A model generated the notes under the pieces. The model did no database searches. It was not told the DNA's origin and saw only the letters and a list, made by a program, of their open reading frames with translations. Position numbers and translations under genes: made by a program. A stretch of DNA of 64,000 nucleotides from Hyphomonadaceae bacterium (GTDB lineage: Bacteria > Pseudomonadota > Alphaproteobacteria > Caulobacterales > Hyphomonadaceae), in assembly GCA_030697555.1 (NCBI GenBank), contig JAUYPV010000018.1:1-64000 (forward strand). The letters are read 5' to 3'. Shown here piece by piece: positions 24,034-40,814 of this stretch; within the stretch, counting starts at the first letter, position 1, and each line of letters starts with the position of its first letter.

Positions 24034-24039
24034 AAATCT

Positions 24040-24222: not shown

Positions 24223-24223
24223 C

Positions 24224-24850: not shown

Positions 24851-25015
24851 CAGTCTCGTCCTCCTCCCCAAAGTGTTTCGCCTCGCCATCCCGGACGCAG
24901 CTTCGGCTGAGCGCGTAACGAATCGCCCAAGGCGAGAAGCTTGGCACTTCAAATTCGTGCAGTCGTCGTCATTCCGGCGACACAGACCTGCAGATTTTGA
25001 GATAGGTTTTCCGCT

Positions 25016-26890
25016 ATGAGCTTCTTATGCGCGCCGCCGCCACGTGCGGGCGCGTGTCTGCTCCCACAATGTTTCAGGCAAGGCGCGATGGCCGCTGTCA
25101 TTGACCGCAGACTCTGGTCCGTGTTGCGAGACCTTGCGGACCGTCCGGTACGGTTCCGCGTGGTTGCCGCGATCGTGCTTGCAACTGCGGCGTCTGGGCT
25201 GGCGGGTCTGGCGCCACTGGCGCTCAAGCAACTGATCGACCAGGGGTTGGAGAGTTTCCCGGTATCAGCGACGACGCTGTACCTCGGCGGCCTTTATGTT
25301 GGCGCCATGGTCGCAGGACGACTGGCGGGCTGCCTTCAAGGTTATCTTTACGCGACCGGCGATCAGGCGCTGCAAACGCGCGTAAGCGTCGAAGTGCTTC
25401 GTGAATTGCTTTGCCTGCCCATGCGGTTCCAGCTGCATGCACCGCCAGGCGCTTTGGTGCAGACGCAGAATCACGCACTGCAGGGCGTGCGCCTTCTGCT
25501 ATCGCTGGCGTGCCTTTCGATCCTTCCGGTGTTCGCCCAGATGGTGGTGATCCTGACCGTGGTCGCCGGCCTTTTCGACGCATCGATCTGGACAGTCGTC
25601 GCCGCGGCGATCGCAGCCTATGGGTTTGTCTTCACGCTGGGGGTTCGAAGGACGGCAGCTCCGGCAGAGCAGGCTCTGGCGTCGCAGATCGCATCGGCCA
25701 GCATTTTCTCCGATGCCATCCTGCACGCCGAAACGGTGAAGGGCTTTTCAGCCGAAGGGCGCATCCTGGCGCGCTATCGCGAGCGTCTGGCGGCTGGCGA
25801 ACGGAGTTGGCGAGCATGCTATGTGCGAAGAGCGGAAACCGCCCTGCTGGCGTCCGTGGTTTTCGGCGTCGTGATGAGTGCAGCCTTGCTGCTTGGAGCC
25901 GCCGGCGTCCGCTCCGGCCAGATCACGATCGGCGAATTCGTGCTTCTCAACGCTTATCTGTTGCAGATCGTTGGACCGCTTGAAGCGACCGGCTTTGCCT
26001 TTCGTGACGCCGCACAGTCACTCGCCTACCTGAAGGACTGGAATCGCATGTTGCAGGTTACCCCGGAGCAAACTCAAAACACGACAGGTCCAACCGCATG
26101 CACGACGTGCGATCGCGAGGCAGGCGTGCAAATCCGGTTCTGCAACGTGTCGTTTGCCTACGATGCGGGGCGACCGGTCATCAATGACGTGACGTTTGAG
26201 GCGCCACCAGGCGGCCTTACGGCGATCGTAGGCCTGTCCGGCGCGGGCAAGTCCTCAGTGCTGCGTCTGCTTCAGCGCCACTATGAGCCGACCGCTGGCC
26301 AGATTCTACTGGACGGAACCCCACTCTCCCACATTGACCTTCATGCGCTCCGTCGGCGGATGGCGGTGGTCACCCAGGATGTGATGCTTTCGAACGACAC
26401 TCTGCGCGAGAACCTGCTCATCGCCCGACCAGACGCGGACGACATTGCCTTGCATCGGGCGCTTCTGGCCGTCGGACTCGCACCGCTTGTGGTGCGTCTT
26501 CCCAAGGGACTGGAGACATTGGTAGGCGAACGAGGCCTGAGTCTCTCCGGGGGTGAGAGACAGCGCGTCGCGGTTGCAAGGGCGCTGCTTCGCGATGCCG
26601 AGATACTGATACTTGATGAAGCTACCTCGGCGTTGGACGGCGACACCGAAAGGGCTGTCTGGGCTGAACTGATTCGCGCAACCAAGGGGCGCACGACCCT
26701 CATCGTGACCCATGACCTGTCCGTCGCCGCGCTGGCGGCCAACATTGTCGTGCTGAACGACGGTCGCGTTGAGGAACAGGGCGCACACGGGGACCTGATC
26801 GACACGGATGGTCTTTATGCGCGACTCTGGCGCTGCCGGTCTGCGGGCGGCACATCCTGCATCAGCGATGCGGCTTTCGGCACGCATTGA
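25016..26890 (+). CDS. ABC exporter (fused membrane and ATPase domains), likely lasso-peptide exporter
   Basis: 624 aa; ATG 25088 (MAAVIDRRLW) is an alternative start nearer the family norm of ~600. The N-terminal ~330 residues are a six-helix type I exporter domain. The ATPase domain has Walker A VGLSGAGKSS, Q-loop VVTQDV, signature LSGGERQ and Walker B ILILDEATSALD, then H-loop VTHD. The family includes Atm1/MsbA-like and McjD-type lasso exporters. The ABC signature is intact. Its place beside the LuxR-TonB-isopeptidase genes suggests it exports the lasso peptide and gives self-protection; this is inferred. Confidence 0.8.
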   Translation: MSFLCAPPPRAGACLLPQCFRQGAMAAVIDRRLWSVLRDLADRPVRFRVVAAIVLATAASGLAGLAPLALKQLIDQGLESFPVSATTLYLGGLYVGAMVAGRLAGCLQGYLYATGDQALQTRVSVEVLRELLCLPMRFQLHAPPGALVQTQNHALQGVRLLLSLACLSILPVFAQMVVILTVVAGLFDASIWTVVAAAIAAYGFVFTLGVRRTAAPAEQALASQIASASIFSDAILHAETVKGFSAEGRILARYRERLAAGERSWRACYVRRAETALLASVVFGVVMSAALLLGAAGVRSGQITIGEFVLLNAYLLQIVGPLEATGFAFRDAAQSLAYLKDWNRMLQVTPEQTQNTTGPTACTTCDREAGVQIRFCNVSFAYDAGRPVINDVTFEAPPGGLTAIVGLSGAGKSSVLRLLQRHYEPTAGQILLDGTPLSHIDLHALRRRMAVVTQDVMLSNDTLRENLLIARPDADDIALHRALLAVGLAPLVVRLPKGLETLVGERGLSLSGGERQRVAVARALLRDAEILILDEATSALDGDTERAVWAELIRATKGRTTLIVTHDLSVAALAANIVVLNDGRVEEQGAHGDLIDTDGLYARLWRCRSAGGTSCISDAAFGTH

Positions 26891-26995
26891 AGTCAGGAAT
26901 GGAAGCGGGCCCGGAAATGTCAATTTGTGTTTGCGAATTCGAATCCTGTTCATCTATCCTGACAAGGGGCGGCGACACGTGCTTCGCCGGGGGGA

Positions 26996-27826
26996 ATGGA
27001 AATGCGGCAAGTCAACGAGCGGCCAGTTTTTCTGTTTCGCAACGAGGCTGCGACGCCCTCGTACCAGGCTGATTCCGGAATGCGCAGCAAATTCTGGACT
27101 TTCGTTGAAGCTTGCGATGAAGCACGATCGCCACGAGCAGTGAGAGATCTGCTCGTATCGACGTTCCGGGATTTGGGGGTCCGTAGCTTCGCAATCGTCA
27201 CGCACGCTCCCCTGGCGGATCTTCGGAGTCTCGGGGTCGTCGTGCATAACTGGCCTAGTCCGGCCATCGACTACCTGTTTGCGCATCGGGCCAGCCGATC
27301 TCAGAATGTCCTTTTTGACGCCGTTGAAGCGTCTGAAGCACCCGTACACTGGCCCTCACAACAAACGCGACGTGAGTGGAAGAGACATCATCGCGTCTGG
27401 TTTGACGCGCTTCGCGACATGCTTGGCGAAGGGGAGGGGGTCTCCCAGGCGTTGAAATCGACGATCGTGAATGCGTCCTGCTCCGTCATCGCGGCTGAGA
27501 AGCCAGACACCGAGCGCGTGCGTGTCTTCATGAGGATCGGAAACTACGCCTATCAACAGATCCTCGCGCTGCAGCGGCCGCTTCTGTCGGAGCCCGAACA
27601 ACTGACAGCGCGGGAACACGAGTTCCTCTATCGCGCAACGGTCATCGGGGAGCGGCCGAGCGACGTGGCGGCCCAGCTGGGTGTGAAGATTTCGACAGTC
27701 CGGACGCTCCGCCAAAAGGCCAGCATACGTCTCGACGCCGGGAGCCAGGAGCAGGCCGCCTGGCGCATGATCGAGACCGGGCAGTTATTCCGGACCGGGC
27801 GCAAGGGCAGAACGCGCAGCCGATAG
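26996..27826 (+). CDS. LuxR-family regulator with autoinducer-binding-like domain
   Basis: 276 aa with a G-rich ribosome site. Residues ~30-190 resemble the autoinducer-binding domain (VRSFAIVTHAPLADL; HRVWFDALRDM; VFMRIGNYAYQQIL). The C-terminal ~65 residues are a LuxR HTH: LTAREHEFLYRATVIGERPS then DVAAQLGVKISTVRTLRQKAS. No acyl-homoserine lactone synthase is in the window, so it would be a LuxR solo if it binds such a ligand. It lies between the exporter and the lasso receptor and may switch the locus on. Confidence 0.8.
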   Translation: MEMRQVNERPVFLFRNEAATPSYQADSGMRSKFWTFVEACDEARSPRAVRDLLVSTFRDLGVRSFAIVTHAPLADLRSLGVVVHNWPSPAIDYLFAHRASRSQNVLFDAVEASEAPVHWPSQQTRREWKRHHRVWFDALRDMLGEGEGVSQALKSTIVNASCSVIAAEKPDTERVRVFMRIGNYAYQQILALQRPLLSEPEQLTAREHEFLYRATVIGERPSDVAAQLGVKISTVRTLRQKASIRLDAGSQEQAAWRMIETGQLFRTGRKGRTRSR

Positions 27827-27949
27827 ACGTCAACCCGTATCGCGCGCCCGGGCGAACATGCCTGCTACTCGTGGTCAATAAAACGTACAACCAAGGTAGG
27901 GGTGTCTCGTTCTCGCGCGGCTATCCACCGTCAGACAATTGAGGGTGGG

Positions 27950-30646
27950 ATGAAGCGCAATCGGACTCGATACAGTTTTCGTAGCCAACGACCTTTGCGG
28001 CGCGCACTTGCAGCGGCGGCGCCATTTGCTGCCGCCGCTGTCAGTGCCTTGCCGGCCTATGCACAGACCCAGACCTTCGCCTTCCGCATCGAGAGCCAGC
28101 CGCTTTCCTCGGCGCTTCTCAGCCTGGGACGGCAGGCTGATCTGTCGATAGCCGCGCCGACTTCACTGGTTGCAGGCAAGGTTGGGCCCACAGTTAACGG
28201 CCAGCTCAGCGCATCCGAAGCGCTTGAGCAACTCCTCGCTGGCTCCGGCCTGACCTTCGTCTTCGTCAACGGAAGCGCCGTCAAGATTGTCGCTAAAGAC
28301 GCGCCGCCCCAGCAACGCGCAAGCGCGGCCGACGCAGAGTCAGAGGGGAGGACCGACCGGGTCATCGTCACCGGAACAAACCTGCGTGGCGTTCATCCCG
28401 CCTCATCGCCCGTCGAGACATATACCGCTGGCGATATCGCGCGCACGGGGGCTGTCACCACGGAGCAGTTCGTCGCCAAGCTTACCCAGAACTCAGGCGC
28501 GACGTCGCAGTATGCGGTGGGATCGACGATTGCAGGACCGAACCTCGACGGCGTCTCCGCCATCGATCTCCGCGGTCTTGGCCTTGGCTCGACGCTGACG
28601 CTTCTGAACGGCCGCCGCATGGCGCTCTCCAACGGCGGCAGAAGCGCCGACGTGTCCCTGATACCGGCGAGCGCCATCAAACGCGTGGAGGTGCTGACAG
28701 ACGGCGCCTCGGCAATCTACGGATCCGACGCGATCGGAGGCGTCGTGAACTTCATTCTCCGCGACGATTTCGAAGGAGCGGAGTCAAGGCTGTCTGTCGG
28801 GGGTGTCACAAACGGCGGGCTTCGGCAGCTCGACGCCAGCCAGACATTCGGGGGCCATTGGGACGGCGGCCATGGCCTCGCTGCGTACAACCTGCATGCC
28901 GCATCGCCCTTGAAAACCTCGGATCGCGACTACGCGATCCTGGCCGGCCCGGGCAATCTCACACCTGTCGATACGCGGCACAATGTCTTTGGAACGGTAT
29001 CGCAGGATATTGGCGACCGGCTGACACTCAACGTGGATCTGGGCGCCGGTTGGCGCAAGGTGAAGAATGGCTATTCGAACCTGACCGGATCGACGCTGGC
29101 GACCCAGACTTTCGCCCGGTACAAAAGTCAGACGGACCAGATCTTCACGGCCCTGGCGCTCGACTATGAGCTCAGCGATGACTGGACCACAAATCTCGCC
29201 GCCTCGTATTCCCAGGTGGACGTCGATGGGCAGGTTTCGGTTACACGATTCAATCTGTCTCCACCGCCGACCGTGACCGCGGACTATGGCGCGCGCAACT
29301 CGCAACTCGACATCATGGGGAAGGTGGACGGCGTGCTGTTCACGCTGCCGGGTGGCGACCTGAAAGTCTCCTTCGGAGGCGGCGTCCTGGAGGAGCAGTA
29401 TGAAGGTGTCAATCCGACGAACAGCACCCAGATCGCGGGCGAGCTGGGGCGTCGGTCAACCTATGCATTCGGTGAAGCCTATCTGCCCCTGATCGGACCA
29501 GGGCAGGCCATGCCATTCGTGCGCCGGCTGGCGCTCAACGTGGCGGCCCGCTACACAGACTATCAGGAGACGAGCAGTCCCAGCCTTGGTCGCGATTTCG
29601 GCGACTCGGTCGATCCCAAAATCGGTCTGCTCTGGTCGCCTATCGAGTCGCTGAACTTGAGAGGAACCTACGGCACGTCGTTCCGCGCGCCGACTCTCAC
29701 GCAGCTGGATCAGACGTCAGGCCTCCACTACCTCTTGCCGGATACGGTCGCAGGCAATCCCGCAATCCTTCTCACAATGGCCGGCTATGCCGCTGCCGGC
29801 CTGAAGCCAGAGACTGCAGAGACATTCACGCTGGGTTTTGACTTTGCCCCGGTCGAAGCATCCGACTTCCGCCTTAGCGCCACGTACTACAACATCGACT
29901 ATACGGACCAGATCGGACTTGCGCCCACGGGAGGCCTCAATCCGTTTGCGTCGCCAGGCCTGGCGCCAGACCTGATCTATCGGCCGCCGTCTCAGTCTTT
30001 CATCGAAGAGACGTTGCGAGCGACCCCGTTGCTGTTCAACTTCTCGGATGTGGATGTATCGGACCCGCAGACAGGCGCGGCAGCACTGTTCGGCCGGAAC
30101 GATGTCTGGATCTTCGATGGACGCCTGAAGAATATCGCCCTTTCCCAGCAGGACGGGTTCGACGTTTCGATCCAGGACCGCTTTGACACTGCGTTGGGTG
30201 ACCTGCAGCTCGGCGCGAACGTGACCCACATCCTGAGCTACCGCCAACGCGGGTCGATGACGTCGCCGACACTGAATGTCAGCGACGTTCCGGGTCAGCC
30301 TGCTGACTGGCGTGGGCGTCTCAATGCTGGTCTGTCGAACGGCCCCTTCTCAGGATCGCTGAGCCTCAACTACACGGACGACTACACAAACCCTCTTGCG
30401 CCGGCCGGGCAGCAGAAGGTGGATAGCTGGGTTACACTGGATGGCTACGCATCCTTCAACCTCGGCGGATCTGCATCGGCGTCCGGTCCCATTGTCAGTC
30501 TCAGCATTCAAAATCTGCTTGATGAAGACCCGCCGTTTCTCCTGCCTGGGTCGGGGTCGAACATCGTCTATCCGGTGGGGTTCGATCCCGCCAACGCAAA
30601 CCCGCTTGGGCGGTTCGTCGTCATTGGTCTGACGCAACGCTGGTAA
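27950..30646 (+). CDS. TonB-dependent receptor with N-terminal STN signalling domain (lasso-peptide receptor)
   Basis: 898 aa from ATG 27950 (GAGGG site); a GTG at 27902 would add 16 residues ahead of the signal peptide. Signal peptide ends near ALPAYAQ. Residues ~42-115 form an STN (secretin/TonB short N-terminal) domain: FAFRIESQPLSSALLSLG … GLTFVFVNGSAVKIV. A plug domain follows (VIVTGTN; GLGLGSTLTLLNGRRM; VLTDGASAIYGSDAIGGVVNF) and a 22-strand barrel ending in an aromatic C-terminus (LTQRW). STN receptors signal to FecR-type anti-sigma factors; FecR and sigma genes lie 5-7 kb downstream. Uptake of the lasso peptide is the likely role. Confidence 0.88.
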   Translation: MKRNRTRYSFRSQRPLRRALAAAAPFAAAAVSALPAYAQTQTFAFRIESQPLSSALLSLGRQADLSIAAPTSLVAGKVGPTVNGQLSASEALEQLLAGSGLTFVFVNGSAVKIVAKDAPPQQRASAADAESEGRTDRVIVTGTNLRGVHPASSPVETYTAGDIARTGAVTTEQFVAKLTQNSGATSQYAVGSTIAGPNLDGVSAIDLRGLGLGSTLTLLNGRRMALSNGGRSADVSLIPASAIKRVEVLTDGASAIYGSDAIGGVVNFILRDDFEGAESRLSVGGVTNGGLRQLDASQTFGGHWDGGHGLAAYNLHAASPLKTSDRDYAILAGPGNLTPVDTRHNVFGTVSQDIGDRLTLNVDLGAGWRKVKNGYSNLTGSTLATQTFARYKSQTDQIFTALALDYELSDDWTTNLAASYSQVDVDGQVSVTRFNLSPPPTVTADYGARNSQLDIMGKVDGVLFTLPGGDLKVSFGGGVLEEQYEGVNPTNSTQIAGELGRRSTYAFGEAYLPLIGPGQAMPFVRRLALNVAARYTDYQETSSPSLGRDFGDSVDPKIGLLWSPIESLNLRGTYGTSFRAPTLTQLDQTSGLHYLLPDTVAGNPAILLTMAGYAAAGLKPETAETFTLGFDFAPVEASDFRLSATYYNIDYTDQIGLAPTGGLNPFASPGLAPDLIYRPPSQSFIEETLRATPLLFNFSDVDVSDPQTGAAALFGRNDVWIFDGRLKNIALSQQDGFDVSIQDRFDTALGDLQLGANVTHILSYRQRGSMTSPTLNVSDVPGQPADWRGRLNAGLSNGPFSGSLSLNYTDDYTNPLAPAGQQKVDSWVTLDGYASFNLGGSASASGPIVSLSIQNLLDEDPPFLLPGSGSNIVYPVGFDPANANPLGRFVVIGLTQRW

Positions 30647-30676
30647 GCAGCTTACGAAATTGCAGAAGAAAGCAGC

Positions 30677-32875
30677 ATGCGCGAGCCAGCGTGCGCCTTG
30701 AACCGTGGATTATCGCTCTACCGCCTGCTGATCGCGATCGCAGTCGGCCTGGCTGGCCCTGCCTGTGCCGAACTGAAGACGACATCGCCGAAGGTGATCT
30801 CCGGGTCGGTATCGACCGCCGAACTCGTGGAGGCCAGAGGCCTGTCCGGGCTCGCGGTTTCACTTGATGGCGCCAGCGTCGCGATCCAGGTCGATCATCA
30901 AGACATCTCAGGCAATCGCACGGTTCTGGACTGGTGGATCGTCCGCCTGTCCGATGGACATGCGACACGCGTGGCAGATGGCGGCGAACCGCGCTGGAAC
31001 GTCAACGGCTTTGTGGCGCTCGAAACGCCCCAATGGTCGCCGGATGGGGAGTGGCTGTATTTCCGGCGCCTGGCGAACCAGGAGGTTCAACTCTGGCGCG
31101 CGAGCCGTGACGGCGCCCGCGAGGAACAGATCACAGACGACACATCAGACGTGGAAGCCTTCATCGTCAGTACGGACGGCGCCGTCATCTATGCCGTCGG
31201 GCCGGGAACACGCGATGAAATCAAGCGCAAGGAAGCGCTGGAGATCGATGCGGGCGTCCTTCTCGACCAGACAATCATCAAGGGATTTCCGATTGTGCAC
31301 GGATTCCCGGTCAATGGCCGGATGGCGACCCTTCGTCTGTTCCCCGATGCGGCAAACTTTGGTCGATCGACACTTCTGGGCGACACGCCGCTACGATCAT
31401 GGCGCATCGATCCGCGTACCGGCGCGATTGGCCCGGCAAACGATGCGGACGCCGAGCGTCTGGCGCAGTTGTGGCTTGAATCAAGCGGTGCATCGCAACG
31501 TCTGGATCCGCTGGATGCGGGGAGAGCGATCTCACGCCAGCATGGGCGCGCACGCGTGGTATCCGCGACGACGGCTCCACCCGGGAGCGACACGGCGTCA
31601 GCGTCAGGCAAGACGCTCGCCTGGCAAGACCGCGACGGTCCCAGTCGCCAGTGTGAGGCTCTCGTTTGCCCCGGCGCCGACGACATCTCCGTTGTCGGTT
31701 GGACTTCCGACGACCGGCGCCTGATATTCCAGACCAGGACGTTCGATACGGTTCGGTTGAACAGCTGGGACGTGCTGACGAACATCGTCGAGACTCTTGA
31801 TGAAAGCCCGGGTGTTCTCGGGTCGGACGAGTCCGGTACAACCGGGACCTGCCAGCTCGCGGGAGCAGAAGCGATCTGCATTTCAGCCTCTGCCGACGCG
31901 CCTCCCCGCGTCGTCGCCATTGATCTGAAATCCGGCAAACGCCGTTCACTGTTCGAGCCAAACCCTGACCTTTCCCCGGACAGGCTCGGTTCCGCCACTG
32001 CGATCACGCTCACCGACAGGTTCGGGAATACGACGGTTGGACGGCTCATCCTGCCGAAAGACGTCCCTCCTGGCCGGCGCCTTCCGCTCGTGATCACGTC
32101 CTACCGCTGTGACGGCTTTCTGCTGGGAGGGTCGGGACGGGACGTGCCGGAGCATGTCCTTGCGGGTCTGGGGCACGCCGCCGTCTGCGTCGACCTCACT
32201 TATGATGTGGTTCGGCGGGCGGCGAATTTCGAAGTCACTCAGGACAGTGTCAACACAAGCGCCGTGGACTTCTTTGAGGATGCGGTCCGCGTGCTCGATC
32301 GCCAAGGACTGGTTGACCCCAAGCGTGTCGCGCTCAACGGATTTAGCGGGGGAACGACGGCGGTCACTTTCGCCATCACGCAGTCGCTGAAATTCACCAC
32401 GGCCGGCGTCACAACCGAAGGATCGCTCGATCCCATCACATGCTACGTGACCTCGCCCGCGAGAACGTGCGCGAGTCTCGCGCAGCGCCAGGGGTTCAAA
32501 CGTCCCTACGACGATCGTGCGGGAATTCTCAGAAACTCGCCTGCTTTGAACGTGGAGCAGATACGCACGCCTCTGCTCATGCAGCTGCCGGAGGTTGAAT
32601 ACGTCACCATGTTGCAGCTTTACAGCGCCATGCAGGATTATGGGCGCGCGGTTGAAATGCACGTGTTCCCCGCCGCTTATCACTACAAGAACCAACCCCG
32701 TCAGAGGCTGTCAGTCTACAATCGCAATGTGGACTGGATAAACTTCTGGCTCCTTGGGCGGGAGTCATCCGAGTTGGATCGCAACGATCAGAACGCGCGC
32801 TGGCGAGAGCTCAGAGACCGGCAATGCCTGCTATTCCCGGCAGGCGGTGCTGACGCGCGGCCCTGGTATTGTTGA
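30677..32875 (+). CDS. Lasso-peptide isopeptidase (AtxE-like, S9 fold)
   Basis: 732 aa with an N-terminal hydrophobic signal (LLIAIAVGLAGPACA). The first ~400 residues resemble a WD/propeller region (LAVSLDGASVAIQ; WSPDGEWLYFRRL). The C-terminal alpha/beta hydrolase has nucleophile Ser in LNGFSGGTTAVTF and a catalytic His region FPAAYHYKNQPRQRLSVYNR, as in the AtxE2 isopeptidase that opens lasso rings. It follows the receptor by 30 bp in one operon, as in other proteobacterial lasso loci. It would hydrolyse the Gly1-Glu9 isopeptide bond after re-uptake in the periplasm. Confidence 0.88.
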   Translation: MREPACALNRGLSLYRLLIAIAVGLAGPACAELKTTSPKVISGSVSTAELVEARGLSGLAVSLDGASVAIQVDHQDISGNRTVLDWWIVRLSDGHATRVADGGEPRWNVNGFVALETPQWSPDGEWLYFRRLANQEVQLWRASRDGAREEQITDDTSDVEAFIVSTDGAVIYAVGPGTRDEIKRKEALEIDAGVLLDQTIIKGFPIVHGFPVNGRMATLRLFPDAANFGRSTLLGDTPLRSWRIDPRTGAIGPANDADAERLAQLWLESSGASQRLDPLDAGRAISRQHGRARVVSATTAPPGSDTASASGKTLAWQDRDGPSRQCEALVCPGADDISVVGWTSDDRRLIFQTRTFDTVRLNSWDVLTNIVETLDESPGVLGSDESGTTGTCQLAGAEAICISASADAPPRVVAIDLKSGKRRSLFEPNPDLSPDRLGSATAITLTDRFGNTTVGRLILPKDVPPGRRLPLVITSYRCDGFLLGGSGRDVPEHVLAGLGHAAVCVDLTYDVVRRAANFEVTQDSVNTSAVDFFEDAVRVLDRQGLVDPKRVALNGFSGGTTAVTFAITQSLKFTTAGVTTEGSLDPITCYVTSPARTCASLAQRQGFKRPYDDRAGILRNSPALNVEQIRTPLLMQLPEVEYVTMLQLYSAMQDYGRAVEMHVFPAAYHYKNQPRQRLSVYNRNVDWINFWLLGRESSELDRNDQNARWRELRDRQCLLFPAGGADARPWYC

Positions 32876-32947
32876 CTGGCTGGCGCATCCGTCGGGCCAT
32901 CTGGAAGCACCGGGGCGTGCGAGGTTCCGCGAGGACGGTTGACGGAT

Positions 32948-33000
32948 GGTGGCGGCGCCGATCACAATTCGAGAGGTGTAGGGCTCGACGCCGCCACCGC
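32948..33000. terminator. Possible terminator between lasso precursor and isopeptidase genes
   Basis: On the minus strand GGTGGCGGCG is followed about 30 bases later by its complement CGCCGCCACC, just after the precursor stop. The long loop and lack of a U-tract make this a weak terminator. It would serve the convergent ends of the precursor and isopeptidase transcripts. Confidence 0.3.
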
Positions 33001-33008
33001 CACGCGGT

Positions 33009-33119
33009 TCAGCCGGCTTTCGGATAGAGGCTTCCCGGCGTTTGCAGGATCTGATCCTCAACGCGGTTCGGGACCGCAGGACCACGCGTCTCTTTCGACA
33101 CTCGACCGAGCTTCATCAT
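33009..33119 (-). CDS. Lasso-peptide precursor (A gene)
   Basis: 36 aa from the ATG at 33117-33119, with GGAG seven bases upstream; an in-frame TAG five codons earlier forbids a longer leader. The leader is MMKLGRVSKETR, matching the LGxxSxxTx ending of proteobacterial lasso leaders with Thr at -2. The core begins GPAVPNRVE, giving Gly1 and Glu9 for a nine-residue ring, and a 15-residue tail follows that ends YPKAG (Tyr20, Lys22). It lies about 120 bp downstream of the cyclase on the same strand and is convergent with the isopeptidase. I computed a monoisotopic mass near 2488.3 Da for the cyclised core. The leader is shorter than usual for the family. Confidence 0.85.
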   Translation of the reverse strand: MMKLGRVSKETRGPAVPNRVEDQILQTPGSLYPKAG

Positions 33120-33239
33120 CTTCTTACTCCGCTACTTGAACTGCCGCGACACTGCGGCACGTCGAGATTGTCACGACCAGAAACAGGTGAAGGAGAATAT
33201 ATCCGGAAAATTTCTGCAGATCGAAGCGGAGCGAGACGT

Positions 33240-35057
33240 TCAGCCCAGGCGCCAGGACACGAGCCAGGCTTCGGCGGCGACAAGGGTCAGCAGCGTATCG
33301 AGATCCTGATCGGTCAGGGGATAGGCATCGGAGAGGAGTTGTTCGATTCTGGCCCGATCAACGTTGCCGCTCGACAACAGGTATCCTTCGAGCAGAAAGC
33401 CTTGCAGCTCCTTGGCGACCTGCGTGACGTCATCCAGCAAGCGATGGTTGATGAACCCCTTGTGGACCCTTCGCGTGATCTCCACCGGAAGCACGTCGGA
33501 GAACGCGGCGCGCTGCAAGGTTCGATCGCGGCCGCCTTGCACAAAAAGATAGGCCGGCGTTCGAAGCGCGAACTCGACAATGGGCTGGGAAATGAAAGGG
33601 TGCACCGCATCGAACGCCGCGCCATGCCCTAGAGTCGGATGGTAGTTGCTCAGCGCGACGATGCTGCGAATCTGCTCGGCCTTGCACGGTGGAAGTGATG
33701 TTGCAGCATCCAGCCAGTCGTGCCGCAAGTAAGCCTCATGTGGGCGGTGGCCGCCGCTCCCGCCAGAGGGTGAGGGCGCTGGCTGGCCATCGCCGAGGAA
33801 AGCGAGCGGGCTCCATTTTTTGCGGCCAAGACGATGTGAAATCCCGGTCTTGAGGACGCGCCATACCGACTGTTCAAGGAGCGATGCGCAGTCATAAGCC
33901 GTCCGCCATGCGCCCCGTCCCCAGTTGTTGAGCAGGAGGTAGTCAGCGAAGGCGTCGCTTGCGAGACTTCTCTGGAGGAACAGGCTGTCTCCTCCATGTC
34001 CAGCCATGACGCAATCGGCGCCGAGGTCTCGGCACGCTCCGGTCAGCAGCGCGTCAGCACGACCGGACAGGATCTGGCGGGTGGGGCGAGCGGTTCGAGG
34101 CGCCGCGAACATCGAAGCGACATCCAGGGTCGATCCTTCGACCTCAAGCTCCACCAGTTCTATTCCGGCATGCCGCGCCGCGAGGCGCGCCAGCTTCACC
34201 TCGAACTCTTCGTAGCCTCGCCCCACAAGATGAAGTCCCGTGACTTTGGCGTCGCCAGTCCGGGCCATGAGATTTGCGACCACCGAGGAATCCAGGCCGC
34301 CAGATGTCCTGACGACGATACTGTCCGAAAGACCTGCCAGGGCGTCGAAGCAATCCCCGGCGGTGTGTCGCAACTCGTCTGCAGCGTGGTCGAATGACTG
34401 CCGGCTTGGTTCGGCCGCCAGATGCGTGGGGTTCCATACCCAGTTGAACGCATTCTCCGTGCGTGGGCGCCAGGTCAGGCGCTGACCGGGTAGAAGCTCT
34501 TTCAATTCACATAGCCCGGTATGCCGGGTGACAAAGTAGCCGTTCATCAGGAAGGCGTTGATGGCTTCCCAGTCGGTGGAGAACGCGGCGCCGGCAAGGT
34601 TCGCGATGTCAGCGACGTGGGAGCAAAGAATGTCGATGCCGTGGAACTGGGCAATGAAGCACGGCGTCGGGCCACATGGGTCTCGAACGACTTCAACGGC
34701 TTCGGAGCCGGGAATGCGCCACAGCGCAACATAGTCACCCCAGTAGCGGGAGATCAGCGCCTTGCCGTTCGCGTTTGCGATGTCATCACTTGCCTGCCTG
34801 TCGAGTTGTTCGATCCGCCCCGCGCCCTCGCGTCCGCGCTCGAACAGGGAGCCGATTACAACGCCTTCTGACCCTGAAAGCTCGGTTGCTCGCACCACAC
34901 GCGCGCCCATCTGGAAGGTGATGACGCGGAGACCTGGGCGGTCGACAAGGAAGGACTCTCGCCCCGACCGCTTCCCTAACGTCTCGGTCCAGCGGTCAAC
35001 CTGAGCGCCATGGGCGGCCACATGCCGGTCCCAGAGAAAGGCGACGAATTGGTCCAT
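33240..35057 (-). CDS. Lasso-peptide cyclase (asparagine-synthetase-like, C protein)
   Basis: 605 aa. The N-terminal ~210 residues correspond to the glutaminase-like half of asparagine synthetase B but lack the catalytic Cys2 (starts MDQFVAF). The PP-loop SGGLDSS is at residues 252-258 and the synthetase half continues with MAGHGGDSLFLQR and HPTLGHGAAFDAVHPF. In lasso biosynthesis the C enzyme adenylates the Asp/Glu side chain and joins it to the core N-terminus. It shares strand with the precursor that follows it and is divergent from fecR, with a 290-bp shared promoter region. Confidence 0.9.
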   Translation of the reverse strand: MDQFVAFLWDRHVAAHGAQVDRWTETLGKRSGRESFLVDRPGLRVITFQMGARVVRATELSGSEGVVIGSLFERGREGAGRIEQLDRQASDDIANANGKALISRYWGDYVALWRIPGSEAVEVVRDPCGPTPCFIAQFHGIDILCSHVADIANLAGAAFSTDWEAINAFLMNGYFVTRHTGLCELKELLPGQRLTWRPRTENAFNWVWNPTHLAAEPSRQSFDHAADELRHTAGDCFDALAGLSDSIVVRTSGGLDSSVVANLMARTGDAKVTGLHLVGRGYEEFEVKLARLAARHAGIELVELEVEGSTLDVASMFAAPRTARPTRQILSGRADALLTGACRDLGADCVMAGHGGDSLFLQRSLASDAFADYLLLNNWGRGAWRTAYDCASLLEQSVWRVLKTGISHRLGRKKWSPLAFLGDGQPAPSPSGGSGGHRPHEAYLRHDWLDAATSLPPCKAEQIRSIVALSNYHPTLGHGAAFDAVHPFISQPIVEFALRTPAYLFVQGGRDRTLQRAAFSDVLPVEITRRVHKGFINHRLLDDVTQVAKELQGFLLEGYLLSSGNVDRARIEQLLSDAYPLTDQDLDTLLTLVAAEAWLVSWRLG

Positions 35058-35347
35058 CCCAGGGAGCCATCAACGTGAAGGCCGGCGACTCCGCACCTGC
35101 GAAGACCGTATGAGCGAGTGGATCACAGTACGTTGCAATCAGGCCGGTTTCGTCCTCGTTCCGATGAAGACGATCGATGGGATTTGGTTTAGCCGCTCGA
35201 CGGCGGCTTTTCCCTACCTCTGTTGCGAGGGAAATATGTTTTTCCTTCTAGCCCTCTGGTTTGATTTTTCCGTCCCGGGATTTCGTCATATGTGACTCAC
35301 CAGCCTGGTCGCGCCACGAACCCGCGTGATGTTGAGGAGACATATCC
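35058..35347. promoter_or_regulatory. Divergent promoter region of cyclase/precursor and fecR
   Basis: 290 bp between the divergent starts, more AT-rich than the flanks (35220-35290). It should carry the start sites for both transcripts and is a likely target of the ECF sigma factor. A 61-codon frame here (35110-35295, plus) does not look like a gene and lacks lasso precursor features. I could not assign -35/-10 boxes with confidence. Confidence 0.45.
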
Positions 35348-36301
35348 ATGCCCTCCGACGTGGCTAAGCCAAGTCGTCAGGATCAGGCCGCTGCCTGGTT
35401 TGCGGCTGAGCGAGCCGGAGTGATGCTGGTAGAGCAGCGTGTAGCATTGGATGCGTGGCGCGCTGACCCGCGGAACCAGGCCGCACTCGACGCGATGTAC
35501 GAACTCTGGGACGATCTTGCTGTTCTGAAGGGCAATGAGCCAGCTCCCAGGAAGGTCGCTCAACGTTCGCTCCTTCCAATCGCTGCAGCGGTGCTCGTCC
35601 TGGTGATCGGTGGCGTAGCGGCATCCAGTTGGTTTGGGCGGCCGGGCGATACGACGATCACCACGTTTGCCGGCGAACAAAAGACGCAGTCGATGCCGGA
35701 TGGCAGCGTCATCGCCGTCAACGTGGCTTCCGGCCTGACATACAAAGTCACCGATAGTCAGCGGCTGGTCACCATCAAGAGCGGAGAGGCGGCCTTCTCG
35801 GTTCGGCCGGATGCGGCAAAGCCGTTTGTCGTGCGAGCAGGCACGATTGAAGTTCGCGCCGTTGGCACGTCATTCAACGTGCGCGAGCGAGATGGTCTGC
35901 TTCAGGTCGCGGTCAGCGAGGGCAAAGTCCAGATCTGCAAGGTCGCTGCTTCAGGTGACGTGTCGGTGCTGGCGGTTCTTGTTGCAGGTCAGCTTCTGGA
36001 AATGCCTGTGACATTCGACGGAGCCATGCCCGCTCTCTCTCCGATCTCAGTGCCAGCTGCCCAGGTTTCCGAATGGCGTATGCGGATCGTGACCTACGAA
36101 GATGCGACCGTCGGTGAGGTGGTGGAGGACTTCAACCGGTACTTTGAGCAGAAGCTTGTTGTCGAGAAGCCGGAGCTTCTGACCCGCCGTGTAACAATTC
36201 GGCTGCAGGTCGAAGATCGGGCGCGTGCAATTGAAACCCTGGCCGGCCTGCTGGGCGCCCGGGTCATCAAAACAGATAAGGGAGACGCTCTCTCTGATTG
36301 A
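35348..36301 (+). CDS. FecR-family anti-sigma factor / signal transducer
   Basis: 317 aa with a GAGGAG ribosome site. A short cytoplasmic DUF4880-like part (QDQAAAWFAAERAG; DAWRADPRNQAALDAMYELW), a transmembrane helix ~75-95 (LLPIAAAVLVLVIGGVAAS), then the FecR domain (QKTQSMPDGSVIAVNVASGL; IKSGEAAFSVRPDAAKPFVV; VRAVGTSFNVRERDG) and an STN-like C-terminal segment (VVEDFNRYF…TRRVTIRLQVED). FecR senses the STN domain of a TonB receptor and releases an ECF sigma factor. The cognate sigma gene is probably that at 37149. Confidence 0.9.
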   Translation: MPSDVAKPSRQDQAAAWFAAERAGVMLVEQRVALDAWRADPRNQAALDAMYELWDDLAVLKGNEPAPRKVAQRSLLPIAAAVLVLVIGGVAASSWFGRPGDTTITTFAGEQKTQSMPDGSVIAVNVASGLTYKVTDSQRLVTIKSGEAAFSVRPDAAKPFVVRAGTIEVRAVGTSFNVRERDGLLQVAVSEGKVQICKVAASGDVSVLAVLVAGQLLEMPVTFDGAMPALSPISVPAAQVSEWRMRIVTYEDATVGEVVEDFNRYFEQKLVVEKPELLTRRVTIRLQVEDRARAIETLAGLLGARVIKTDKGDALSD

Positions 36302-36344
36302 TGCGGGTAGATCGAGATTGACGAATTTCGAAGGGGGGAGACGC

Positions 36345-36617
36345 TCAGGGCCCGTGCATCTTCTGCTGCGCATCCTTCACAAGTCGGCTTGCGTCTATGC
36401 CGAGGACGTTTGCGATGCGGACCAGCTCAATCACATCCAACCGACGTTGTACGGACTCGATTTTGGCGATGATTGACTGGTTCCAGCCGAGAGCGTCCGC
36501 GAGCGCTTGTTGGCTGAAGCCGGCTTTCACGCGCTTCTGTATCAGCTTCTCAACGAAGCTGGCATAGGCGTCATCGTGTAGTGACGCTGTACGCGCTTTA
36601 TAAGGCGGGCTGGCCAT
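36345..36617 (-). CDS. XRE-family HTH regulator 1
   Basis: 90 aa from ATG 36617. The longer frame to 36665 is rejected because it would place the operator-like palindrome inside the gene; the paralogue next door has its palindrome in the same position relative to this start. A lambda-repressor-like HTH spans residues ~28-75: GFSQQALADALGWNQSIIAK then IESVQRRLDVIELVRIANVL. It is about half identical to the next gene (both have ASLHD.AYA near the start and ALGWNQS in the HTH). A small autoregulatory repressor is likely. Confidence 0.85.
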   Translation of the reverse strand: MASPPYKARTASLHDDAYASFVEKLIQKRVKAGFSQQALADALGWNQSIIAKIESVQRRLDVIELVRIANVLGIDASRLVKDAQQKMHGP

Positions 36618-36641
36618 ACCCGCGGCTAAGTGCGTTATGGA

Positions 36642-36654
36642 ATTATGCCATAAT
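36642..36654. promoter_or_regulatory. Operator-like palindrome upstream of XRE regulator 1
   Basis: ATTATGCCATAAT (ATTATG-C-CATAAT) starts 25 bp before the ATG at 36617 and is followed by CGGCT. The same 13-mer with the same CGGCT flank occurs upstream of the paralogous gene at 37008-37020, so it is the probable binding site shared by both proteins. It also resembles a -10 box (CATAAT). Confidence 0.65.
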
Positions 36655-36699
36655 CGGCTCGCCATGCAGACATGGAGCAGAGGCGGTCGAGCGCATCAC

Positions 36700-36981
36700 T
36701 TAGCCAAGGTGTTGCGACTTGATCATCTTCTGGAGTCTTCGGACTAGGAGCGCCGGGTCGAAGCCGACAATCTCCGCCACTCGAATGAGTTCGACCACGT
36801 CAATCCGGCGCTGCTTCGTCTCTATCTTCGAAACAACTGATTGATTCCATCCAAGCGCATCAGCGATGTGTTTCTGCTTCAATCCCGACTCGTCCCGAAC
36901 CTCTACCAGCATTTTCACGAACACCGCGTAGGCGGGGTCGTGAAGTGATGCTGTTCGATTCTTGCGAGGCGCAGTCCCCAT
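36700..36981 (-). CDS. XRE-family HTH regulator 2
   Basis: 93 aa. HTH residues ~28-75: GLKQKHIADALGWNQSVVSK then IETKQRRIDVVELIRVAEIV. Paralogue of the preceding-strand neighbour at 36345, in tandem on the minus strand with a gap of about 80 bp that holds the neighbour's operator. It is divergent from the sigma-factor gene. Placement between fecR and the sigma gene hints at a second layer of control over the lasso locus, though the pair could also be unrelated cargo. Confidence 0.85.
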   Translation of the reverse strand: MGTAPRKNRTASLHDPAYAVFVKMLVEVRDESGLKQKHIADALGWNQSVVSKIETKQRRIDVVELIRVAEIVGFDPALLVRRLQKMIKSQHLG

Positions 36982-37007
36982 TGCTCGCCGCGTAAAGGCA
37001 TTATAGC

Positions 37008-37020
37008 ATTATGCCATAAT
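37008..37020. promoter_or_regulatory. Operator-like palindrome upstream of XRE regulator 2
   Basis: ATTATGCCATAAT, starting 27 bp before the ATG at 36981 and followed by CGGCT exactly as at 36642-36654. It is the second copy of the presumed shared operator. A half-similar GCATTATAGC lies immediately before it. Confidence 0.65.
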
Positions 37021-37148
37021 CGGCTTGCTGTTGAGATGGCGGGTGCGAGGCTTGGTTTTCAGTCGGCGTCTGACCCGCTGATCTACTGTCGACGCATGTG
37101 TCGAGGGACACCAACCCACACTTGGGGCGCTAGGGTTGAGGCACGATT

Positions 37149-37652
37149 TTGAAGCGTCGCGGAACTGAACTTGAAGCGGGTTTAGAGAAGGCGTTCCGCG
37201 AACGCCGGACTGCACTGCGTGACGTAGCCCGGCGGGCTGGCGAGCAGGATGAAGAAGACGTCTACCAGGACGCCTTCGTCAAAATCGTCGAGAGATCGCG
37301 GCGGGAGGAGATCCCGAAGCTTGACAATCTGCTCAGGCACGTAGTCCGTTGCCTGACAATCGACCGGTTCCGACGGAAGGCTTTACGCCAGACATATACG
37401 TCGGATGAGGCAGGGGAGAACGCTGTGGACCCGGCGGCCGATCCAGAACGCAAGCTGATAGGCGCTCAGCGGCTCGGGCGCGTAATGTCTGCTATTGAGG
37501 CAATGCCGCCGAGGCGGCGGGAAGTCTTCCTGCTGCACCGAATTGAGAAACTGACCTACGCCCAGATCGCACGGCGCCTGGATGTGAGCATCAAGGCCGT
37601 GGAAAAACACGTTCACCTGGCGATGCGGCAACTGTCCGACACCGACGACTAA
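37149..37652 (+). CDS. ECF sigma factor (FecI-like)
   Basis: 167 aa from a TTG start. Sigma region 2 (DEEDVYQDAFVKIVERSR; NLLRHVVRCLTIDRFRRKAL) and region 4 (AIEAMPPRRREVFLLHRIEK; LTYAQIARRLDVSIKAVEKH) are both present, the standard ECF size. FecI-like sigmas pair with FecR and an STN TonB receptor, all present in this locus. It probably drives the lasso biosynthesis and uptake genes. The B gene follows after 73 or 115 bp on the same strand. Confidence 0.88.
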   Translation: MKRRGTELEAGLEKAFRERRTALRDVARRAGEQDEEDVYQDAFVKIVERSRREEIPKLDNLLRHVVRCLTIDRFRRKALRQTYTSDEAGENAVDPAADPERKLIGAQRLGRVMSAIEAMPPRRREVFLLHRIEKLTYAQIARRLDVSIKAVEKHVHLAMRQLSDTDD

Positions 37653-37767
37653 GTCGAACGCTGTGACGGAAGCCTGCCGTCCTTCATCGGAATGACGACG
37701 AAAACGCCCAGCCGATACGCTACCTTTGGCAGATGAGCGCAGCACACGATGCATCGAAGCGGACAGA

Positions 37768-38481
37768 ATGACAGGGCGGCTGTCCCTGAATGAAGACGTC
37801 TACTTCTGCGTGACCCAGGGGCAGGGGATCTTCCTCGATCTGAAACGCGATGAGTACAACGCCATCCCGGTTGCGACGCGGACTGGCGTTGGTGATGACA
37901 TTTCGGAGGAAGACGTGCTGCGAGCTTTTGAGCAGCACAGGTGTGAGCTTTTGGAGGAGCGTTTGCTCGCCGATCGCGACGACGGGCCGACCAGTATCGC
38001 GGCCTACAAGTCTATTCCGCGGTCTTCAGAAAATGTCTTCCATCCAGATGATCAACGGGCCTTTGGCCTGCCGGGCCCGGCAGGCAGGTCTGTGCGCGTC
38101 GATGCGAGCGATGTCTTGGACTTTGGTCTCGCGTGCCAGCGAGCATCGGCGGAACTAAAGGAACGACATATTCGCGACGTTGTGGTCCGCGTGCGCACGC
38201 GCAAGGCCGCCGCCTGCTCATCGACAGCGAACTTGAACGCCATGCGGCTCCAGACCGCGATTTTTTGCAAGCTGAGACCCTGGTATCCCCGCGGCTATCT
38301 TTGTCTCTATGACGCGTTGGCGCTGGTCGAATTTCTCGCTCGCCGGCGCTTGTATCCGCTGTGGGTCTTTGGCGTTCAGGCTCAACCGTTCGGCGCACAC
38401 TGCTGGGTGCAGGCCGGCGACTGCCTGCTGAATGAAGCGACCGAGTATGCCGGGCAGTTCACGCCGATCATGGCCGTGTAG
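37768..38481 (+). CDS. Lasso-peptide B protein: RRE fused to transglutaminase-like leader protease
   Basis: 237 aa from ATG 37768; a TTG at 37726 would add 14 residues that do not look like domain. Residues ~1-75 form a PqqD-like RiPP recognition element (RLSLNEDVYFCVTQGQGIFL; LKRDEYNAI) that binds the leader. Residues ~115-237 are the protease, with Cys179 in YLCLYDALALVEFL and His211 in GAHCWVQ followed by the LLNEATEYAGQFTPI ending of McjB-type enzymes. It should remove the leader before cyclisation. It is separated from the A and C genes by about 2.7 kb of regulatory genes on the other side, which is unusual. Confidence 0.88.
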   Translation: MTGRLSLNEDVYFCVTQGQGIFLDLKRDEYNAIPVATRTGVGDDISEEDVLRAFEQHRCELLEERLLADRDDGPTSIAAYKSIPRSSENVFHPDDQRAFGLPGPAGRSVRVDASDVLDFGLACQRASAELKERHIRDVVVRVRTRKAAACSSTANLNAMRLQTAIFCKLRPWYPRGYLCLYDALALVEFLARRRLYPLWVFGVQAQPFGAHCWVQAGDCLLNEATEYAGQFTPIMAV

Positions 38482-38531
38482 GTGTGCCGTCATCAGCATC
38501 ATTGCATCCCCACCGTCGCGCACGATAGCAA

Positions 38532-38561
38532 AAGGGCGCCCCGTGTGAACGGGACGCCCTT
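38532..38561 (+). terminator. Intrinsic terminator after the lasso B gene
   Basis: AAGGGCGCCCC pairs with GGGACGCCCTT with one mismatch around a GTGTGAAC loop, followed by CGTT. It lies 50 bp after the B stop codon and probably ends the sigma-B transcript. Confidence 0.6.
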
Positions 38562-38628
38562 CGTTGCGAGCCCTAGGTTGGGGGGCCGGGCCCGCAACGT
38601 CTTAATTACCTCGCACTTGAACTGAAAT

Positions 38629-38886
38629 CTACCGGGTTGGTGTCTCGATCACGATGTTGGCAAACAGGCATTCGACCTCCTCCGTTATCGACGCGATGCC
38701 CAGGCCGTCCGCGGCGACATAACTCTTCGCCATGACGCGTTTGCACATGCCCTGTGGAAGTTCCCGCAACACAAGTTCTAGAACCAGATAAGCGGCCTCT
38801 CCGCGCGCCTCAGCCCCCGTGATGAGCGCATGCGGCTTGTTGGCAACCGGATGTCTCCGCGTTCTCGTCGCTTTCGTTCTGGTCAT
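38629..38886 (-). CDS. Small hypothetical protein
   Basis: 85 aa from the third of three consecutive ATG codons (38886), which gives a GGGAG ribosome site at good spacing; a longer frame to 39096 is low-complexity and unlikely. A basic N-terminus (MTRTKATRTRRHP) is followed by a helical, balanced sequence (EARGEAAYLVLELVLRELPQ; GLGIASITEEVECLFANIVI). No family recognised. It is convergent with the lasso B gene and upstream of nothing on its own strand. Confidence 0.5.
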   Translation of the reverse strand: MTRTKATRTRRHPVANKPHALITGAEARGEAAYLVLELVLRELPQGMCKRVMAKSYVAADGLGIASITEEVECLFANIVIETPTR

Positions 38887-39278
38887 CATCATTCTCCCAG
38901 CCGCCCAATGCGGCGAGGCGAGACCAGAGTCAGGCGCCGCTGCCAAAAGCGGGGGAGCCCCCGAATGCTCCAAAAAAGCTCTGAGTGAACTTGGGGCCTG
39001 TGACGGCGTCCCGATGGAAGGCGCGGGGCCGCCCGCACGCTGTCGTCGCGTCGCCGGCCACGCGCGGCGTTCAAATGGCCCCATTGGGCCGCGCACCTGT
39101 CACTCGGTCTTCATTCAGAACCTACCACCTATCTCGCGGCCTGGCTTCGGGGGCATTTCCTCCCGGTGCAGGCGGTGAATGATGTTCTACGCGAAGCGGA
39201 AGCGCGTCAGTCGGATGGCGCCGATCCCCGGCGCAACAAGAGAAACACCAGCCACGCCGGACGGGCCGCTGAGTAGGG
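38887..39278. other. Gene-free stretch before fic
   Basis: About 390 bp between the small hypothetical gene and the fic stop codon. The overlapping short frames on both strands are Arg/Pro-rich and have no ribosome sites. No repeat or RNA structure stood out. Confidence 0.4.
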
Positions 39279-40814
39279 TCAGGGCGCCTGCGGCGCCGAC
39301 TGGCCAATCAGACCGGCAAGGAAGGTTGTGAACGGGACGATGTCCTGATCGACACTCGCCTTTTCGAGCGCGGCCATGTACGCGGCGCGCTTCTGTACCG
39401 GTATGACTGTCCAGGGATATCCGGCGGCCGCCATCATCAGATTCATCAGGAAGCGCGCGGTGCGGCCGTTCCCGTCGCCATAGGGGTGAATGTGGACGAA
39501 GACAAAGTGCCCGAGCACGATGCGTACAGCCGGGTCGGCTTCATCGCGCAGCAGTTCGAAGAAGGTGGGCATGGCGTCGCGGACGGCGTCAGGATTTAGC
39601 GGCGTATGGCGAGAGCCGCGGATGTAGACGGCGTTGGTCCGATAGCCAGCGAGACTTTCGGGCCGGAGGATCCCCGCCGTCACGCTCGGCGCAAATAGCT
39701 CGCGGCGCCAGCCGTTGTGGTCGCGTTCAGCGACTTCGCCGGGCGCAGCGCCACCGAGGACCTCTCGGACGCTTTCCTTGACCGATTGGAACGCCTGCCA
39801 ATAGCCGCGCGCGGCCAGGCCGTTCTGGTGCTCGAGGTCGGCTTCACTCTGATCAGGCCGCCAGGTTCCGCGGCGTACCCGTTCAATCAACTCGGCGCTG
39901 ACCTGATACCCCTCGATCGACAGCGAGTGATAGGCGTCAGTTACGTAGATCTCATCGACGCGGCGCATGTAGGCGTCGATGTCATTGATGCGCGCAGGCG
40001 ATTCGGGAAAGCGCCCGACGATGTGTTGGCGCATGGTTTGCCACATCAGCCGGATGCGCTGGACATAGGGAGAAGGATCGCGCTGATAGCGAAGATTCGG
40101 GAGCTGCTCGGCGAAGGGATCTCTTTCACGGATGTCGAAACCGGCGGCGCGCATGGCGCCAATAATTTCATCGGCCTCCCGCGTGCGGCCGATATTCCTG
40201 AAGGCGCCGGCCAGGCGCCCCGCAACGTGTGAGTGCCCGCCCCCGAGCAGGCGTTCAAGCAGCGCCGAGGCGTCACGCTGCGTCGCAAGGACAGTGCGCG
40301 CTTCGGTGGGATGAAGTTGAAAGAAGCTGGGAGAGGCGGCGATCAAGGCAGGCTCGACCTTGAAAACACGCAAACCTTGGACTTCGTCCGAGTCACTTGG
40401 GTCGGGAAGCGTGTGGTTGCCCTCGAAGAGGGACGTGTTGTGAATGAGCTGCGTGGGCTGGTTGCGCGCGCCGCGCGCGCGCACAAGCAATTGGCGCGGC
40501 ACGCTGAAGTTGCCGGCATGCAGGACAAGTGATTGCTCGGGCGTAAGCGACCAGTTCGCGCCGAAGCGCTCATCAAGATAGTCGCGGCAAAAGCCCCAGA
40601 AGGCGGTGTACCACGCAGTGGTCTCGCCATCGCCTCCACTAGGTCGCGTGGAGATGTACCAGCCTTTCATAACTTCCTGGAGGAAGCCGTTTTTCGACAG
40701 GATTTCGCGCGTTGTGCGCGGCAGGTCGGATGAGCGGATGGCCTGCCGGCTGGAGGCTTGCAGCTCTTTGAGCGTTTCCAGAGCGGCAGCGAGTTTTTCA
40801 TTGAGGGCGGCCAT
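39279..40814 (-). CDS. Fic-family AMP-transferase (class II, self-inhibited type)
   Basis: 511 aa. The Fic core motif HIHPYGDGNGRTARF (about 445-460) is the canonical HPFxxGNGR active site. Upstream, YHSLSIEGYQVS carries the inhibitory (S/T)xxxE(G/N) motif before the Fic core, so activity is probably restrained by the inhibitory helix. The N-terminal ~200 residues look like a winged-helix/AbiEi-like domain (RTTREILSKNGFLQEVMKGW). Fic proteins transfer AMP to Tyr/Thr of target proteins. Its promoter region contains three 24-bp direct repeats. Confidence 0.9.
   Translation of the reverse strand: MAALNEKLAAALETLKELQASSRQAIRSSDLPRTTREILSKNGFLQEVMKGWYISTRPSGGDGETTAWYTAFWGFCRDYLDERFGANWSLTPEQSLVLHAGNFSVPRQLLVRARGARNQPTQLIHNTSLFEGNHTLPDPSDSDEVQGLRVFKVEPALIAASPSFFQLHPTEARTVLATQRDASALLERLLGGGHSHVAGRLAGAFRNIGRTREADEIIGAMRAAGFDIRERDPFAEQLPNLRYQRDPSPYVQRIRLMWQTMRQHIVGRFPESPARINDIDAYMRRVDEIYVTDAYHSLSIEGYQVSAELIERVRRGTWRPDQSEADLEHQNGLAARGYWQAFQSVKESVREVLGGAAPGEVAERDHNGWRRELFAPSVTAGILRPESLAGYRTNAVYIRGSRHTPLNPDAVRDAMPTFFELLRDEADPAVRIVLGHFVFVHIHPYGDGNGRTARFLMNLMMAAAGYPWTVIPVQKRAAYMAALEKASVDQDIVPFTTFLAGLIGQSAPQAP

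Follow-up and report, generated by a model that had tools for sequence, protein, structure and literature searches.

A probable lasso-peptide precursor gene with a 12-residue leader in an isopeptidase-type cluster of a Hyphomonadaceae bacterium

Can an open reading frame of 36 codons, lying between the genes of a candidate lasso cyclase and a lasso isopeptidase, be the precursor gene of a lasso peptide, and if so, how would its product relate to the receptor and regulatory genes around it? The frame is found in a stretch of 64,000 nucleotides of contig JAUYPV010000018.1 from a Hyphomonadaceae bacterium (here termed the window), and was proposed as a lasso precursor in an earlier note made from the letters of the window. 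Here, we compare it with related loci and arrive at a reading to which we give a probability of roughly 0.85, namely that the frame is a real lasso precursor gene within a feedback circuit of receptor, FecR regulator and ECF sigma factor. On sequence grounds, this reading draws on the gene itself, a conserved family of precursors, the enzyme families, the order of the cluster, a constraint on the leader and three shared promoter-like sites.

The precursor gene and its relatives

The frame exists at 33009–33119 with the length and coordinates first given for it; the strand, which had been left unstated, is the minus strand, and the plus strand across the same bases translates as SAGFRIEAS.... 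Gene A comprises a leader of 12 codons (33119–33084), a core of 24 codons (33083–33012) and a stop codon (33011–33009), and its product consists of the leader MMKLGRVSKETR followed by the core GPAVPNRVEDQILQTPGSLYPKAG, giving the 36-residue precursor MMKLGRVSKETRGPAVPNRVEDQILQTPGSLYPKAG. The ribosome site claimed for it is present as a Shine–Dalgarno-like GGAG (33130–33127, minus strand), 7 bases ahead of the first ATG. A leader longer than 12 residues is excluded, since 5 codons upstream the frame meets a TAG (33134–33132) and no start codon intervenes; use of the second ATG would leave 11 residues. The leader ends in LGRVSKETR with Thr at position −2 and the core carries Gly1 and Glu9, all as the earlier note had read them, with Asp10 immediately after Glu9. 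When recomputed, the mass of the 24-residue core is 2506.318 Da in linear form and, minus water, 2488.307 Da when cyclised, in agreement with the previous figure of about 2488.3 Da. The gene lies 120 bases behind the cyclase gene C and is convergent with the isopeptidase gene.

The motif by itself is not overwhelming evidence, as a loose lasso pattern appeared in 72 of 5000 sequences made by dinucleotide shuffling of the C–isopeptidase gap (32876–33239), a rate that favours the view that the frame arose by chance in this gap and that the true precursor is elsewhere. A stricter pattern, composed after sight of the window sequence, appeared in none of the 5000 shuffles. Across the full window there is one match to the strict pattern and there are four to the loose one, and neither pattern yields a better precursor near the B or C gene, a finding to which the earlier note had declared its reading vulnerable. 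At a threshold of E 0.001, Pfam and NCBIfam gave no match for the precursor.

The relatives of gene A were reached through C. A C search over 105 genomes of the family gave a match in 28, and besides the window's own C there are three loci at 42–43% identity: one in another cluster of the window's genome (own2), one in a genome placed in the window's genus (G096), and G099. A contig scan using the window's C alone found no relative; with a four-row alignment of C it found eight loci, adding L035 and L038, while the precursors of L036 and L037 are those of G096 and G099. Three of the eight, from Mycetohabitans (L040–L042; C 23% identical), gave no help on the precursor question. Behind each related C gene lie one to three precursors, with the leaders MIRLGQVSKETR, MIKLGRVSKETR, MIKLGAVSTCTR, MTKLGRVSKETK, MTKLGHISRETK, MITLGRISRETK and MIKLGRVSALTR. 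A profile of nine rows, made of seven sequences together with one identical and one near-identical copy from L035, recovered one further, previously unseen own2 precursor at E 9.8e-10 (L031 12916–13095, plus strand), with the leader MATLGSFTASTR and a core start of GTVVPNYVEDPVL... / GTVVPNYVEDPVLCDPGSLFRC.... The core of this second own2 precursor has two Cys residues and a longer C-terminal reading. In the near-identical loci L032 and L035, the second precursors (11609–11722 and 12172–12285, respectively) differ in one core residue, Cys versus Phe near the C-terminus.

There are thus nine distinct precursors (one in the window, two in own2, two in G096, three in G099 and one in L038), and all nine have the LG-x5-T-x leader end, Gly at core position 1 and Glu at core position 9. 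All nine also have a 12-residue leader when counted from the ATG behind a Shine–Dalgarno-like site. This length is forced in three of them (the window's, the first of G096 and the third of G099), which have no in-frame upstream start codon; the other six have longer open frames upstream, and their count rests on the Shine–Dalgarno-like site. The first core begins 157–170 bases behind the C stop at six of six loci. Across eight of the nine precursors, pN/pS of the leader is 0.39 in frame, with pN below pS in 27 of 28 pairs, and 1.39 and 0.93 in the shifted frames, where pairs with a stop were skipped; core codons 2–9 give 0.69 for the same eight. By this measure, the leader codons are under purifying selection. 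Eight distinct homologues, a position kept at every locus, the coding constraint and the single strict match in the window all speak against a chance frame, to which we give next to no probability. The lasso-precursor interpretation of the earlier note is thereby supported, in that homologous precursors with the same leader motif and Glu9 lie behind homologous C genes.

A real precursor might nonetheless close its ring on Asp10, or yield a branched product with an unthreaded ring. Asp10 directly follows Glu9, and threading is unreadable from sequence. Glu9 is invariant in the nine precursors, whereas position 10 varies, with Thr in the three G099 precursors and Asp in the other six, and the characterized isopeptidase of the AtxE2 family, to which the neighbouring enzyme belongs, is reported to require the threaded form (PMC9266682). 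We consider such a product improbable and favour a threaded ring closed on Glu9. The earlier note had called the core unfamiliar, and this holds as far as the search extends: GPAVPNRVE, LGRVSKETR and MIKLGRVS returned no text from the literature searched, outside which most subscription papers lie, and the same literature gave nothing on lasso peptides, isopeptidases and Hyphomonadaceae together.

Leader length and gene order

The leader of A is about half the usual length. Among 33 loci, A precedes C at 20, where the leaders measure 21–27 residues from the strongest Shine–Dalgarno-like ATG. A follows C, with a leader of 12 residues, at the six loci of the window's group and at L050, while L045 and L046 combine the A-before-C order with leaders of 12–13 residues; the precursor pattern gave nothing at four (L007, L009, L016 and L040). 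Nine precursors at seven named loci, in the order A-B-C, have leaders of 18–26 residues from their annotated starts. The benenodin precursor model NF033522 scores the window's precursor at 13.8 bits versus a cut-off of 33, and it aligns only from model position 11–14 onward. All five short-leader precursors tested fall below 33, as does the long-leader precursor of L010 (21.2 bits), while the named comparator L084 reaches 55.5. Since the five short-leader precursors are under the NCBIfam cut-off, the short-leader group may be undercounted.

These features, together with the in-frame stop 5 codons upstream, are what a decayed precursor might look like, one that had lost its upstream leader and left a remnant that B could not use. 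Set against decay are the eight relatives with an equally short leader behind a Shine–Dalgarno-like site, the purifying selection on the leader codons, and the 12-residue leaders of L045 and L050, which come from another family of the order. We judge decay very unlikely and take the short leader as probably functional. A leader of this length should be workable, given that removal of 28 residues from the microcin J25 leader is reported to leave product formation detectable, with about 8 residues then carrying recognition (PMC11420955); the full microcin J25 leader has 37 residues (PMC11006600). Lasso leaders generally have 20–40 residues according to a 2026 review (PMC13352647), so that a natural leader of 12 residues would lie near the engineered minimum and could offer a simple substrate for the study of B and C. 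No natural leader as short as 12 was noticed in the literature surveyed, which leaves subscription papers largely outside, and we make no claim to the shortest known.

Leaders of 12–13 residues are more widely spread than the window's group, because L045, L046 and L050 also have such precursors (for example, leader MIDLGKVSEATK with core GPLDGPGVDLNALRMQ). L050 shares with the window the position of A behind C; L045 and L046 differ in having A before C, the C proteins of all three are 27–29% identical to the window's, and the cores are unlike, with Ala1 in one. In a quick tree of C, the six loci of the window's group form one clade (SH-aLRT 100) and the short-leader label requires two changes; the tree leaves room for a single origin of the short leader. 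As far as seen, short leaders occur outside the group and the full combination of features occurs within it alone.

Enzymes and neighbouring genes

The earlier note held that the other parts of the pathway surround the frame, and the enzyme families bear this out. C (33240–35057, minus strand; 605 aa) belongs to the asparagine-synthase family (PF00733, 75.1 bits) and contains an SGGLDSS motif that is invariant in four aligned C proteins; it matches both lasso-cyclase models, NF033561 and NF033535, below their cut-offs, which we count against the main reading. The isopeptidase E (30677–32875, plus strand), an S9 enzyme of the AtxE2 family, scores 441.9 bits with NF033523 (cut-off 400) and aligns to AtxE2 in the PDB (5txc) at E 1.6e-58; its homologues in own2 and G096, at 398.7 and 396.7 bits, are just short of the 400-bit cut-off.

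B (37726–38481, plus strand) has a B2 cysteine-protease domain (NF033537, 64.8 bits; cut-off 33). Cys193 and His225, which we take to be its catalytic residues, are invariant across 14 aligned B proteins, and annotated, intact lasso B proteins can be aligned to its N-terminal part; a regular-expression collection of B proteins gave only four and was discarded. The leader-binding domain, RRE, gave no Pfam match in B, a further point against the main reading. AlphaFold gave a poor model of B (mean pLDDT 49.7), and searching the PDB with B, either singly or as an alignment, gave nothing meaningful. The L038 genome (2.9 Mb, completeness unstated) yielded no B gene, and the G099 contig, at 5192 bases, does not extend far enough to show one; these two loci therefore back the precursor and not the whole pathway.

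Upstream of the isopeptidase gene lies a TonB-dependent receptor (27950–30646, plus strand) with plug, barrel and STN signalling domains in Pfam (PF00593, PF07715 and PF07660). Its listed GTG start at 27902 is probably wrong, as it falls inside a promoter-like site described below (27895), and a Met at 27950 fits the relatives. Behind C are a FecR-type anti-sigma regulator (35348–36301, plus strand; PF04773) and a FecI-like ECF sigma factor (37149–37652, plus strand; PF08281, with TIGR02937 over its cut-off), between which lie two XRE-type HTH regulators on the minus strand (36345–36665, PF01381; 36700–36981, PF13560 and PF01381). HTH-like frames in the same interval were picked out by eye in relatives, two each in own2 and G096 and a single one in L038 (L032 15121–15939; L031 8882–9503; L038 583–1278).

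The other flank of the cluster carries an ABC exporter with fused permease and ATPase (25016–26890, plus strand; PF00005 and PF00664), which has counterparts in the same place in G096 and L038, matched by the same Pfam models, and in own2 and L035, identified from their reading frames. This transporter has 264 PDB matches, and the 60 of them that were listed include no lasso exporter. A LuxR-like regulator follows (26996–27826, plus strand) with a weak autoinducer-binding match (PF03472, 25.2 bits; cut-off 23); the own2 counterpart also matches PF03472 and that of G096 does not. A GntR-family regulator (24224–24952, minus strand; PF00392 in window and G096) adjoins the ABC gene, with an AsnC/Lrp-family regulator beyond (23590–24033, minus strand; PF13404 and PF01037 in window and G096).

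The benenodin/astexin type (NF033522 and NF033523) is alike in its LG-x5-T-x leader end, Gly1 and acidic ring residue, and in having B, C, an AtxE2-type isopeptidase, an STN-type TonB receptor, a FecR regulator and an ECF sigma factor. It differs in a leader about twice as long (18–26 or 21–27 residues versus 12) and in the order A-B-C, whereas here C precedes A and B stands behind the sigma gene; in addition, the window has ABC, LuxR-like and XRE genes and a precursor under the model cut-off. In one review (PMC9266682), isopeptidase clusters are described as near-constant, with GntR ahead of the precursor gene and with the isopeptidase gene followed by the receptor gene and the sigma/anti-sigma pair, and an ABC transporter is reported for only one of them. 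The window departs from both statements. Its order is C then A, the FecR and ECF genes come after C, the ECF gene is followed by B, and GntR sits beside the ABC gene, which is itself conserved. Microcin J25 and other ABC-transporter clusters share A, B, C and an adjacent ABC exporter, to which the window adds the isopeptidase, the receptor and the sigma/anti-sigma pair. The rubrinodin cluster, which the same review describes as an intermediate of two clades, is likened to the window by description only, in having both isopeptidase and ABC transporter.

Promoter-like sites, possible regulatory elements and the proposed circuit

The short leader, the order C-then-A, the separated B gene and a set of shared promoter-like sites were absent from the earlier account of the locus. 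When the C–FecR intergenic regions were aligned for six loci, a near-identical pair among them, an invariant CCCTACC emerged. The search pattern GGTAGGG-N12to18-CGNCNA, which was composed from this alignment of relatives, a point that we count against the main reading, has three matches in the window versus 0.05 expected, and each reads GGTAGGG-N16-CGGCTA. One precedes the C-A genes (35190–35218, minus strand), one stands 26 bases ahead of the proposed receptor start and so before the receptor and isopeptidase genes (27895–27923, plus strand), and one precedes a structured RNA-like element (24070–24098, plus strand). Sites occur at matching places in relatives, and in an alignment of 11 sites (A8) the second element is equidistant in all and reads CGGCTA in eight; the three sites of L033 and L038 read CAACAT, CGACAA and CGACAT. 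Over the 4.98 Mb genome, the 11-site model gives five matches at E ≤0.002 and a sixth at E 0.17, all at two lasso loci, the next matches having E 2 and worse. That the site is exclusive to the two lasso loci of the genome is only suggested by this search, since the five best matches are training rows, the one new match is that at E 0.17, and scoring covered 150 of the 3600 first-look candidates.

From these genes and sites we infer how processing, ring closure, threading, export, sensing, the pairing of sigma factor with site and the RNA may fit together. B would bind the short leader via Leu(−9), Gly(−8) and Thr(−2) and cut after Thr(−2)-Arg(−1). C would then activate Glu9 and link it to Gly1, trapping the tail, to give a product of 2488.31 Da. 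Once exported, perhaps through the adjoining ABC transporter, the peptide would be imported by the STN-type TonB receptor, and the isopeptidase would open it. An occupied receptor would pass a signal via FecR to the ECF sigma factor, and this in turn would activate C-A, receptor-isopeptidase and the small RNA from the common GGTAGGG-N16-CGGCTA.

Alternatively, the peptide could be mainly antibacterial and exported by the ABC transporter, with the receptor, FecR and ECF genes serving another ligand. The ABC gene is indeed conserved beside the cluster, a feature that the review reports for only one isopeptidase cluster (PMC9266682). The same promoter-like site ahead of both C-A and receptor-isopeptidase argues against a separate ligand, and we hold this alternative to be unlikely, though of real weight. 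The feedback circuit is the reading we prefer. More tentatively, at somewhat under even odds, the group may form a clade of its own among isopeptidase-type lasso systems, with a leader reduced to 12 residues and a self-sensing circuit in which peptide, receptor, FecR and ECF sigma factor drive one type of promoter ahead of the peptide genes, of the receptor and isopeptidase genes and of a dedicated small RNA. If this is true, the lasso peptide would be a signal made and destroyed under joint control, with a bearing on the purpose of isopeptidase clusters. With a common site before C-A, receptor-isopeptidase and the RNA-like element, a self-sensing role is testable with promoter fusions.

Two further elements lie between C and A. 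A hairpin TGCCGC-AGTGTC-GCGGCA (33142–33159, minus strand), between C and the ribosome site of A, appears in the minimum-energy fold at five of six loci (absent in own2) with letters that differ among relatives; fold energies of the region are mostly not clearly under those of shuffles (z −0.2 to −2.3; −4.0 in L038). An AT-rich palindrome-like element AATTTTCCGGATATATT (33196–33212, minus strand) is the single match in the window to a pattern drawn up from relatives, and resembling letters were seen by eye in own2, G096, L035 and L038. A second AT-rich palindrome-like element lies at 35229–35244, before FecR, with similar letters in several relatives. Both elements are possible operators of the XRE proteins.

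The RNA-like element is a putative small RNA of about 120 bases (24104–24225, plus strand), flanked by the genes of the AsnC/Lrp and GntR regulators; it has three hairpins, the third of which leads into a short T-run. Rfam at gathering thresholds gave no match over 23000–40000, and a scan of 23900–25100 for sigma-70 promoters and terminators found neither, the last hairpin falling short of the rule of at least five T in 8 bases. The putative RNA occurs at four loci, two of them nearly identical (window 24104–24225, plus; L121 1997–2124, minus; L032 2702–2828, plus; L035 21066–21192, minus). Of 30 predicted pairs, six have pair-keeping changes on both sides and five are broken or gapped in one sequence. 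In the window's own genome, matches at E <0.1 lie only at the two lasso loci.
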